DNA from: a virus
Virus record (IMG/VR): IMGVR_UViG_3300049255_000046
Span: 1-29,994 of that record
DNA length: 29,994 nucleotides
Strand: one strand, 5' to 3'
Below, piece by piece: positions 2,708 to 29,341 of this stretch. Numbering within the stretch: position 1 is the first letter of the stretch; every line of letters starts with the position of its first letter. The position numbers and the translations under genes were made by a program. Under the pieces are notes generated by a model. It had not been told where the DNA came from and ran no database searches. It was given only the letters and a program-made list of their open reading frames with translations.

Positions 2708-2715
2708 AGTGCTTG
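2708..2715. repeat. Left 8-bp target-site duplication AGTGCTTG
   Basis: AGTGCTTG abuts the left inverted repeat of the IS1595-like remnant and is exactly repeated at 3216-3223. Eight-bp duplications are characteristic of IS1595-family insertion. Confidence 0.85.
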
Positions 2716-2824
2716 CGACTTTATATACTTGGCGGAAGTTACCGCTGGAGGCCAAAATGAGGAATGGTGACAGGGCGGCAACGCGGTAGATCGTTTTGTC
2801 GCTGCTAGCATCTACCTCGGCGAC

Positions 2825-2993
2825 ATGGGAGAGAAGGAGTTGATTTCAATGGAAACGCTAGATGATGTTCCGGAATCGCGTTTTCTATGAAGTGCGGTCC
2901 GTCAAGCAAATCATTTCCGAACAGGGAATTAAGCCGTTGGGAGATTTCTCCCATCTGGCGTTGGACGAATACGGTAAGCGCCGAGGAATTTAA
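2825..2993 (+). pseudogene. Frameshifted small ORF inside the IS remnant
   Basis: From ATG 2825 (or ATG 2849, which follows GAGAAGGAG) the frame reads to ...DDVPESRFL and stops at 2890. The +1 frame continues from the same place as FYEVRSVKQIISEQGIKPLG... to TAA at 2991-2993. Removing one T from the TTTT run at 2881-2884 would join the two into a single protein of roughly 48-56 aa, so this looks like a gene broken by a one-base insertion. Family unknown. It ends where transposase similarity on the other strand breaks off, so it may be a passenger gene or a captured fragment. Confidence 0.4.
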
Positions 2994-2998
2994 TAGTT

Positions 2999-3166
2999 TC
3001 ATTCGCGAGTCCCGACGATGTACGCAACCTCAGCGTTACCGCAGCCCATTCGCGGGCAGGCAACACCATTCGGGAAGCGCAGTTCAGTGACGAACTTGTG
3101 CGCCACGTCCGGGTCGGAGAAGTATCTCACTGCCTCTAGGAGAGTGGCCGGAACCTTGGTTTCCAT
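2999..3166 (-). pseudogene. Truncated IS1595-family transposase (N-terminal zinc-ribbon region, 55 aa)
   Basis: From ATG 3166 the minus strand reads METKVPATLLEAVRYFSDPD... followed by a stretch ending FPNGVACPRMGCGN and AYIVGTRE, then TGA. This matches the usual start of IS1595/ISXO2-like transposases: a helical region, the 'P-G-x-x-CPxxGC' zinc ribbon and the 'I..R..W.C' strand that should follow. The frame stops exactly where the Trp of that strand is expected. The second CxxC and the whole DDE-type catalytic domain are missing, so it cannot be active. A GGTGGAAG site precedes the ATG. Confidence 0.85.
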
Positions 3167-3181
3167 GCTTCCACCATATAC

Positions 3182-4147
3182 CTAATTAGCACTTCCGTCA
3201 AAGTATATAATGTCGAGTGCTTGAGAATTCATACTGCACCAAACAGACCGAGACGGTCCTGGATGAGTGTGTGATATTCGGGATTGATCTCGTAAACCGA
3301 TCGCGACCTCGGCGGTCGTCCCGGTACCCATGAACGGGTCGAGAATGATTCCATCCTTTGGTGATCCGGCAAGGATACAGCGGCGGGCTAACTCCCTGGG
3401 CATGATGGCAGAGTGCTCGCCTGTGTAGGGTTCGGTTGGGATGGACCATACGCTACGAGCGTTCGCGCCGATAAAACCCTCGTCGCCTGCGGCCTTGCGC
3501 GGCTGCCACGTGATGGCTTTCATCGCGCCGTTGGTCTTCCCGCGGGCGTGCGCTCGCGTCGAGCCCTTTTGCGCATCGACGTTCTGCGAGAGGCGAGCTA
3601 TTGACGATTCGGCCAGCGGTTCGCGGATTGCGTCCTGATCGTAGAAGTACCGTGGGTTCTTGGTCAAAAGAAAAACGTATTCGTGCGCAAGTGTTGTGCG
3701 GTCCGTTACGCTCGACGGCATCCGGTTTGGCTTGTGCCATACGATCGTATCGCGCAACCACCAGCCATCGGCTCGCAGCGCCATCGCGACGGCATGCGGA
3801 ACAAGCATCTGATCTTTTTCCTTGAACCCGCCGGCGCGTCTATTCACGCGGCGGTTGGTAGCCCGTGAAGGGGCGTAGCAATCGCCCAGGTTGAGCCAGA
3901 GCGTGCCGTCAGGACGCAGAACCCGCCGAACCTCGCGGAACACGCCCACAAGCCTCGCAACGTAGGCTTCCAGCGACGGCTCGCGCCCGATCTGCCCGTC
4001 AACGCCGTAGTCCCGTAAACCAAAGTACGGAGGCGAGGTGACGCAGGCGTGGATTGAATCGCCGGGAATCTCCGGCATCCGCTCGGCGCTGCCGAGATGC
4101 ACGCGGTTCCAAAGGTCGCCGTCCGCGCTTGCGCTCTTATCGCTCAT
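3182..4147 (-). CDS. DNA adenine/N4-cytosine methyltransferase with frameshifted C terminus
   Basis: 321 aa. Motif IV TSPPY (residues 37-41) comes before motif I DPFMGTGTT (about 270-278), the order of beta-class N6-adenine/N4-cytosine methyltransferases. ATG at 4147 overlaps the TGA of a tiny upstream frame. After AEVAIGL the frame leaves the family: the expected end EINPEYHTLIQDRLG... is present in another frame at 3291-3229, closed by TGA. In frame, the protein instead runs through unrelated residues and ends inside the IS inverted repeat (DIIYFDGSAN). The segment that should contain W-I-G and the acidic SAM-ribose residue appears collapsed between ATCGGT-type words. Activity is therefore doubtful unless this is an assembly error. 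Confidence 0.82.
   Translation of the reverse strand: MSDKSASADGDLWNRVHLGSAERMPEIPGDSIHACVTSPPYFGLRDYGVDGQIGREPSLEAYVARLVGVFREVRRVLRPDGTLWLNLGDCYAPSRATNRRVNRRAGGFKEKDQMLVPHAVAMALRADGWWLRDTIVWHKPNRMPSSVTDRTTLAHEYVFLLTKNPRYFYDQDAIREPLAESSIARLSQNVDAQKGSTRAHARGKTNGAMKAITWQPRKAAGDEGFIGANARSVWSIPTEPYTGEHSAIMPRELARRCILAGSPKDGIILDPFMGTGTTAEVAIGLRDQSRISHTHPGPSRSVWCSMNSQALDIIYFDGSAN
3216..3223. repeat. Right 8-bp target-site duplication AGTGCTTG
   Basis: Exact copy of 2708-2715, directly abutting the right inverted repeat of the IS remnant and 5 bp beyond the original methyltransferase stop (3231-3229). Confidence 0.85.
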
Positions 4148-4964: not shown

Positions 4965-5589
4965 GCTGCCCGGCGAGGTCATTGACGGGGCGTGGTAGGA
5001 TGGAGCTAAGAGTGCGGCTCAATGCCTTACGGCAACGAGGCACCGGCACGGACCGCTGCGGCGTCAAGGTGATCGCAGAACAACGAAACCGCCCGGCGCT
5101 ATGAAGCGATACCCCTTCACGCCTTGAGTGCCTTAGGAAAGCACGGTACCTGGTCACGGATTCCTAACCGCGAGCGCAGCGAGCACCTCCAAGGGCCGTC
5201 CAGGCCCGCATTACTCACCTCCCGCTCAACACTACACCACCGCAACCGCACCGCGAAGCGCAACACCAACAACACCAACAACGAACAAAAAACACAATAA
5301 CCAACACAAAGCAAGGCAGCTAGTTACTAGTTAGTAACTAATAATTAGTAAGTTAGATAGCCTGCAGGTTGCTCGGTTGCTAAATTGCTAGATAGCTTGA
5401 TAGCTGTATAGCTGTATTAGTTAGATTGCTAGATTGCTAGATTGCTAGATTGCTAGATTGCTAAATACCTTGCAATCAATGAACCCCAGTCACTATAACA
5501 CCTATCGGCCCCCACGACCCCAAAACACTGCGCATAGCGCCGAGGTGGAGATTTTTTCAATTTTTTTTCTTGTGGTAAACTGTGGTGAA
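4965..5589. other. Non-coding divergent region, candidate replication origin
   Basis: About 620 bp without a credible gene, between leftward and rightward operons. From about 5200 to 5310 the + strand is A/C-rich. Then come AT-rich inverted repeats: AGTTACT-agtt-AGTAACT (about 5322-5339), then AATAATTAG-like words, then degenerate TAGAT/TAGCT/TTGCTA words leading into five exact GATTGCTA units. After about 5560 the + strand becomes strikingly G/T-rich. Strand-composition reversal, iteron-like repeats and AT-rich DNA at the divergence point together suggest an origin of replication. T-runs at 5551-5556 and 5560-5567 precede the first rightward gene; I could not pick a confident late promoter. 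Confidence 0.5.
5424..5463. repeat. Five tandem GATTGCTA units
   Basis: Exact 8-bp unit GATTGCTA repeated five times (5424-5463). It is preceded by degenerate relatives (TTGCTAAATTGCTAGATAGC, TAGCTGTATAGCTG) from about 5376. The repeats are non-coding and iteron-like in layout, although the 8-bp period is shorter than one helical turn. Confidence 0.9.
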
Positions 5590-27760: not shown

Positions 27761-29341
27761 TTACGTCTCGATTAGCGGTCGATAGTCGTTCGACTTCACG
27801 TCAAACGTCCACGCCAGCGCTTCTTGCGTCGTCTCGCACTTCGGATCAACTCGGAGCGAGTACATCTTGTGCCAGCGCTTCCCGACCCATACGCCCGCGG
27901 CGTTCTCGTCCGGCTGGTAGTCAACAGGTTCTGGCGTCGAATTGACGACTTCCACCATGCACAACGGCTCTACATCGCCGATGTCTGCAACGAGCAGCCG
28001 GCGCGGGAAACCGTATTGGTCGGTATCTTCGTGGCGCACTTCCGCGCCGATCGCTTGCAAGTATCGCGCCGCGCCGAAACGGTCGATCATAATGCGCCGA
28101 ACTTCCGCGTTGCGCTCGGATTGAATCTGCTGCGCCGTGATGGTCTCCGGCGATTCTACGACGTTCTGCTCGACCTGGATTCCGTGGATGAACCACAATG
28201 CCGTACCGTCGCGCCATGCAACAGCCGGACCTTCGAGCGAATGTAAGCGCCGAACGCCGCCATGTTCCGGCTCGCGTTCCAATATCACCGGCGGTTCGCA
28301 GACCATCACGAAATCTTCGCAGAACCATACCCAGCCGGCGGACATAAGATTCTCGTATGCTTCGAGGCGCGCGGCAATATCCTCAGAGATCGCGAGCCCC
28401 GCAACATCGCGAAAAAACGTCAGGTATGCAAGGCCCCAGCCGTAGCTGTATCCCGACCACCAGCGTCCACCCAAGTACCCGTACCACCATTGCGAGATCG
28501 CGTCGAGATATGCCCTACGGATAGCGCCATCATTTTCCGTTCGGGCGCTGTTAACGGCGCTGCGAACGGCGCTGTCAACGGTAATGCGAACGGCATCGTG
28601 AACGGCACTGCCAATGGTGTCGTAAACGTCACGGTGAACGACGCTGTCAACAGCGCTTTCAACGGCGCTGCCAACGGCGCTGCGAACGGCATCGTCAACG
28701 CTGTCAACGGCGCTGCGAACGGCGTTTTCAACAGCGCTTTCAACGGCGCTGTTAACGGCGCTGCGAACGGCGTCGTCAATGGCGCGGCCAACGGCACTGC
28801 GAACGTCACTGTTAACGGCAATGCGAACGGCGTTTTCAACAGCGCTTTCAACGGCGCTGTTAACGGCGCTGCGAACGGCGTCGTCAATGGCGCGGCCAAC
28901 GGCACTGCGAACGTCACTGTTAACGGCAATGCCAACGGCGTTTTCAACAGCGCTTTCAACGGCGCGGCCAACGGCGCTGCGAACGGCGCTGTCAACGGCG
29001 TCATCAACGGCGTTGCCAACGGCGTCATCAACGGCGTTGCCAACGTCGCTGGCAACGGCGCGGCAAACGGCTCCTTCGTCGAGTTGACCTCTACGAAGAA
29101 GCTTGATCGTTAATGCGGCTACGGGTCCGGAAACAGCCATGATCACAGGTGAATCGACCCACACGATCGCCTTCGGCTCGGGCTTTCCCGCAAAGCGTAA
29201 TGCGGCGCGAATACCACGCTCAACGCGCTCTCGATCTGCGGGCTTCGTCGAGAGACTTTGCTCAATCCAGCGGTCAGCCCACGGCTGCATTTGCGCCCGC
29301 TCATGAGCGGTCAGCTGTTTAATATATTGGCGCTTCCGCAT
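27761..29341 (-). CDS. DUF6745-type protein with long tetrapeptide-repeat region (526 aa)
   Basis: N-terminus (1-90): helical 'E..QM.PWADRWIEQSLSTKPADRERVERGIRAA...IVWVDSPV', typical of this family. Residues about 91-270: tetrapeptide repeats of the form x-A-V-x (SAVRSAVGRAVESAVENAV), encoded by 12-bp units and including a 36-residue (108-bp) duplication. Then WWYGYLGGRWWSGYSYGWGL, and the family-typical C-terminal part (LHSLEGPAVAWRDGTALWFIHGIQV, ERNAEVRRIMIDRFGAARYL, EPLCMVEVVNSTPEP, REAW-like end). Function is unknown; related bacterial proteins are also repeat-rich. ATG 29341 overlaps the stop of its partner gene (TAATG), a pairing I also associate with bacterial relatives. Confidence 0.75.
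   Translation of the reverse strand: MRKRQYIKQLTAHERAQMQPWADRWIEQSLSTKPADRERVERGIRAALRFAGKPEPKAIVWVDSPVIMAVSGPVAALTIKLLRRGQLDEGAVCRAVASDVGNAVDDAVGNAVDDAVDSAVRSAVGRAVESAVENAVGIAVNSDVRSAVGRAIDDAVRSAVNSAVESAVENAVRIAVNSDVRSAVGRAIDDAVRSAVNSAVESAVENAVRSAVDSVDDAVRSAVGSAVESAVDSVVHRDVYDTIGSAVHDAVRITVDSAVRSAVNSARTENDGAIRRAYLDAISQWWYGYLGGRWWSGYSYGWGLAYLTFFRDVAGLAISEDIAARLEAYENLMSAGWVWFCEDFVMVCEPPVILEREPEHGGVRRLHSLEGPAVAWRDGTALWFIHGIQVEQNVVESPETITAQQIQSERNAEVRRIMIDRFGAARYLQAIGAEVRHEDTDQYGFPRRLLVADIGDVEPLCMVEVVNSTPEPVDYQPDENAAGVWVGKRWHKMYSLRVDPKCETTQEALAWTFDVKSNDYRPLIET
28715..28930 (-). repeat. Two 108-bp direct repeats within 12-bp repeat array
   Basis: 28715-28822 and 28823-28930 are essentially identical, and a third partial copy starts at 28931. 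The wider region (about 28545-29060) consists of 12-bp units such as AACGGCGCTGTC. The lengths are multiples of three, so expansions and contractions preserve the frame. Confidence 0.92.

Follow-up and report, generated by a model that had tools for sequence, protein, structure and literature searches.

An IS1595-family remnant, very probably a deleted cargo-carrying element, next to a methyltransferase gene in a phage contig

How did the beginning of a bacterial transposase gene come to lie, framed by two copies of an 8-bp sequence, among the genes of a phage? The question is raised by a 500-bp insertion at positions 2716-3215 of a linear IMG/VR contig of about 30 kb. What we call the window (the whole stretch of DNA that was analysed) takes in all of its 29,994 bases. 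The G+C content is 51% in the element versus 60% in the whole record. A sequence-only reading of this DNA had seen here an IS1595-family remnant with its target-site duplication, inside a phage genome. We conclude that this is very probably a cargo-carrying IS1595-family element (a "transporter IS", tIS) in a copy that an internal deletion has made non-autonomous, inserted next to a methyltransferase gene.

The borders of the element can be read from its flanks and from its ends (see Table 1). The sequence AGTGCTTG is present on both sides, identical at 8/8 positions and directly flanking the inverted repeats, so that the perfect 8-bp duplication announced by the sequence-only reading is genuine; the start given there, 2708, takes in the left duplication, the element proper beginning only after it. 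The terminal inverted repeats are 24 and 25 nt long: 14 of their 15 outermost positions are paired, and a 1-nt indel follows. In 200 simulated windows of matched dinucleotide make-up, the best combination of an exact 8-bp repeat with a 15-nt inverted repeat reached at most 13/15 paired positions (mean 10.5). From the duplication and the ends taken together we infer an insertion event. Inside the inverted repeat of the transposase end, the motif TTGAC looks like the -35 box of the transposase gene.

Table 1. Positions of the element, its parts and the neighbouring gene in the window, followed by the passengers recognised in full-length relatives (named by element)
Feature	Position in window, or relative	Strand	Basis
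Left target-site duplication AGTGCTTG	2708-2715	.	8/8 exact repeat of 3216-3223
Terminal inverted repeat CGACTTTATATACTTGGCGGAAGT, non-transposase end	2716-2739	+	pairs with 3191-3215; 24 relatives have homologous ...TATACTTGAC ends
Subterminal motif GTGACAGGGCGG, non-transposase end	2767-2778	+	12/12, 52 nt from left end
Probable passenger-gene remnant, two frames	2771-2993	+	inferred from position and orientation
5' remnant of IS1595-family transposase gene, 55 codons	2999-3166	-	Pfam Zn_ribbon_IS1595 and tblastn relatives
Terminal inverted repeat CGACATTATATACTTTGACGGAAGT (minus-strand reading), transposase end	3191-3215	-	pairs with 2716-2739
Right target-site duplication AGTGCTTG	3216-3223	.	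exact, abuts inverted repeat
Phage N6/N4 DNA methyltransferase gene	3229-4147	-	Pfam N6_N4_Mtase E=2.5e-43, alignments, frame translations
SocA/Panacea antitoxin-like passengers	L156, L164		
HicB-like passenger	L018		
PIN passenger	L159		
ClpP-like SDH protease passenger	L170		
DUF3800 passengers	L019, L022		
DUF1828 and DUF6978 passengers	L021		
WapI immunity-like passenger	L020		
DUF5343 passenger	L166		
DUF6932 passenger	L015		

The element is located just downstream of the methyltransferase gene. In the frame supported by its relatives, this gene has its stop at 3229-3231, 5 bp beyond the right duplication; the ORF as called mechanically extends into the element. We rejected the methyltransferase homology inside the element to which tblastn alignments up to residue 321 pointed, the canonical C-terminus SVYEINPEYHTLIQDRLGLFGAV being read in another frame and ending at that same stop. 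As the conserved C-terminus ends outside the element, the insertion is intergenic. The methyltransferase gene also has a frameshift near 3300 (3229-3310), where a few codons are apparently lost after ..TTAEVAIGL and before the conserved C-terminus: the frameshift may be genuine or may stem from the assembly.

What remains of the transposase justifies the term "non-autonomous" used by the sequence-only reading. Of a gene of about 310 codons, the window copy has kept no more than the first 55, which cover the N-terminal region and the first half of the zinc ribbon. The Pfam profile Zn_ribbon_IS1595 matches this 55-aa ORF with E=2e-4 and 21.7 bits, a score below Pfam's curated cut-off of 25.4 bits because only 27 of the 46 profile positions remain in the truncated sequence. 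The closest transposase (299 aa, with 72% amino acid identity over 47 residues by tblastn) is that of the element L013, from a Candidatus Eremiobacterota genome of palsa peat; at the DNA level the two are 73% identical over about 140 bp. The likeness ends at about residue 50, halfway through the zinc ribbon, and none of the frames of the element codes for a DDE catalytic domain. Since the catalytic domain is lost, the element is unable to move by itself. Compared with what is expected of the IS1595 family, the window copy has the zinc ribbon, the 8-bp target duplication and inverted repeats homologous to those of its relatives, but it lacks the DDE domain, as its gene stops at codon 55: it is the remnant of a family member and not a functional one.

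A search for full-length relatives and their hosts, which the sequence-only reading had proposed, gave 24 elements which we could delimit, mainly in soil-bacterial MAGs and genomes. They measure 1.7-3.9 kb, and in all of them a transposase of about 310 aa is found near one end. Their target duplications are exact (8/8) in 23 cases and 7/8 in the remaining one, and their ends are of the GG..(T/A)TATACTTGAC type, with 13-20 of 20 positions matching (the weakest, 13/20, is L167). The ends in the window have the same ...TATACTTGAC core and the same start position; the nearest pair is that of L170, CGACGTTATATACTTGACGC / CGACATTATATACTTGACTC, and CGAC begins both sides. These like ends and 8-bp duplications uphold the reading of the locus as an IS1595-family remnant in a phage contig. 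The sources are Eremiobacterota genomes, one viral contig (L004) and MAGs labelled Acidimicrobiia, Acidimicrobiaceae, Verrucomicrobia, Spartobacteria, Acidobacteriales, Phycisphaeraceae and unplaced bacterium. Between the transposase and the far end, the relatives carry one to three further ORFs, mostly different from one element to the next; besides the passengers listed in Table 1, these are unknown genes. The full-length relatives are IS1595-family tIS elements.

Two observations on individual relatives may be added. The elements L016 and L017 are almost identical, in MAGs labelled Verrucomicrobia and Acidobacteria respectively, whose sample names are alike; either the element passed from one phylum to another not long ago, or the binning is at fault. 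The 3' end of L013, from 3892, is apparently interrupted by another insertion soon after the transposase stop, and the sequence from there onward resembles the start of an IS21-type istA gene.

The subterminal motif GTGACAGGGCGG was found with at least 10/12 matching positions in 7 of the 24 relatives, at a distance of 44-56 nt from the terminus that lies away from the transposase: it is complete (12/12) in three Eremiobacterota relatives and in L016, and has 10-11/12 in three others. In control stretches of equal size taken from the relatives, the same threshold is reached in 5 of 1672. With the motif and both termini present, the window element is therefore an internal-deletion derivative. 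The candidate passenger remnant is open over 2771-2887 and continues in the next frame over 2862-2993; it points towards the transposase remnant, like the passengers in many relatives. It has no homologue in Pfam, in NCBIfam, in plasmids, in viral contigs or among the relatives' own passengers. Weak matches in genomes (E 0.004-0.1) were discarded as chance, their loci having no element ends. The passenger gene has probably been lost from the window copy.

We propose the following course of events. A transposase of this clade, encoded by the element or provided in trans, would have worked on the two ends and inserted the element into phage or prophage DNA, probably within an Eremiobacterota-like host, and 8 bp of the target would have been duplicated at that moment, as the flanking repeats show. 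A deletion would have removed all of the transposase gene beyond codon 55, and most likely the passenger gene too except for a small part, while both ends and the subterminal sequence survived, as is visible in the anatomy of the element. This deletion may have preceded the insertion (the transposase then acting in trans, as with MITEs) or followed it, in a phage under genome-size pressure. The present element would have no coding function, and would be mobile only if an element of the host supplied a matching transposase.

On the timing, we give slightly better than even chances to a full-length element of 2-3 kb which entered phage or prophage DNA whole and was shortened there afterwards. 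Such a history agrees with the length of the relatives (1.7-3.9 kb), with the fact that one full-length relative, L004, sits with an exact target duplication in a viral contig of 53 kb, and with the two frames of the putative passenger remnant, which are what decay would give; it agrees less well with a target duplication and outer ends that are little decayed, and no intermediate was seen.

It is quite possible, though we would not wager on it, that the element is instead a true MITE, deleted before it entered the phage, multiplying in the host genome and moved by the transposase of a full-length relative. The ends and the subterminal sequence are intact though the transposase is gone, and the exact target duplication suggests no great age. 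This possibility suffers from the lack of any other copy in the viral contigs or in the 148 Eremiobacterota genomes, a sample outside which the true host species perhaps falls. The 500-bp sequence has no match in phage or plasmid records, and the 55 aa have none in plasmids; the exact element ends are absent from the viral contigs scanned and the exact end pattern from the 148 Eremiobacterota genomes, where DNA similarity to the element is confined to the transposase part. Short forms combining an end with the motif gave 5 matches in Eremiobacterota, about as many as a reversed control pattern: three are elements already in our set, and for the remaining two no partner end flanked by a target duplication was seen. 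The comparison with a MITE made by the sequence-only reading is thus right in part: the element is short (500 bp), has both ends and, with its 55 codons, has no complete transposase gene, but the several copies of a MITE family did not appear, a second copy being absent from the viral contigs, the 148 Eremiobacterota genomes and the phage and plasmid records, which makes such a family less likely. Because no second short copy was found, and because L004 lies in a viral contig, we lean slightly towards decay in place. Finally, a chance resemblance (ordinary intergenic phage DNA with a fortuitous pair of repeats) could invoke the Pfam match, which by itself is under the curated cut-off, but its probability is practically negligible: none of the 200 simulated windows equalled the observed pair of repeats and duplication, and the transposase similarity, the end sequence and the subterminal motif all fit one clade of elements, of which 24 relatives are at hand.

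The sequence-only reading had also claimed that the element points to the host lineage, and the distribution of the transposase supports this as a lean towards Eremiobacterota. With the 55-aa query at E<=1e-8, 30 of 148 Eremiobacterota genomes match, with up to 70 bits. In two other phyla, to which an Acidobacteria and an Acidimicrobiia relative belong, the counts are 3 of 297 (<=39 bits) and 6 of 296 (<=50 bits). These comparisons single out Eremiobacterota as the most likely origin of the element and as a plausible host of the phage. The phage terminase has no match in the 148 Eremiobacterota genomes, a search which divergence makes uninformative, so that the hint about the host comes from the element alone. 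No close relatives of the phage were found by terminase, by major head protein or by megablast, and a copy of the site free of the element did not turn up. The phage genes scanned, a subset of the ORFs, include those for terminase, portal, head and adaptor proteins; none of them codes for an integrase.

The contig has some further features. About 12 tandem copies of TTGCTAGA are found at 5369-5463 of the window, upstream of the terminase gene. A long array at 28544-29061 consists of 12-bp units in 108-bp repeats (about 4.4 copies), and a 526-aa protein with a DUF6745 domain (E=2e-36), encoded on the minus strand at 27761-29341, overlaps it.

IS copies with passengers are called transporter IS, a term which, with its link to the IS1595 family, is cited in a passage of PMC3129680; tISCpe8 is an IS1595-family example (PMC5704250). 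Our element resembles these by its IS1595-type transposase, its short terminal inverted repeats and its 8-bp target duplication, and its full-length relatives do so by the passengers between the transposase and the far end. It differs in lying in a phage contig and in being reduced to 55 codons of the transposase gene and a passenger remnant that can no longer be recognised. Among the relatives, the passengers are not resistance genes but toxin-antitoxin-like, immunity-like or unknown ones. With IS-derived MITEs, short forms which a related intact IS can activate (PMC3129680), it shares its small size, the preservation of both ends, the target duplication and the lack of a complete transposase; it differs from them in that a single copy is known here and no amplification of a family is seen. 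As a transposable element within phage DNA it recalls the IS described in 347 temperate phages, which are very rare in virulent ones (PMC8136500), but the window copy is deleted and has no full transposase gene, and transposase searches with a coverage threshold would skip such copies. The IS1595 family and IS in phages are already known, and the window copy is another member.

We suggest, tentatively and as something rather doubtful, that the element is the phage-borne fossil of an undescribed IS1595 clade of soil bacteria, Eremiobacterota above all, whose exchangeable passengers of one to three genes, many of toxin-antitoxin or immunity type, lie beside a conserved subterminal motif and are spread between hosts by phages. 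In the element, an encounter between an unplaced phage and a bacterial lineage has left a physical trace, which gives a hint about the host where close relatives of the phage are lacking. Searches for transposase genes overlook such deleted remains of transposons, so mobile elements may pass through phages more often than is counted. The relatives make up an IS1595 group that carries cargo and occurs in soil phyla which have received little study; this clade is a more interesting lead than the window copy, and its passengers merit a survey of their own.
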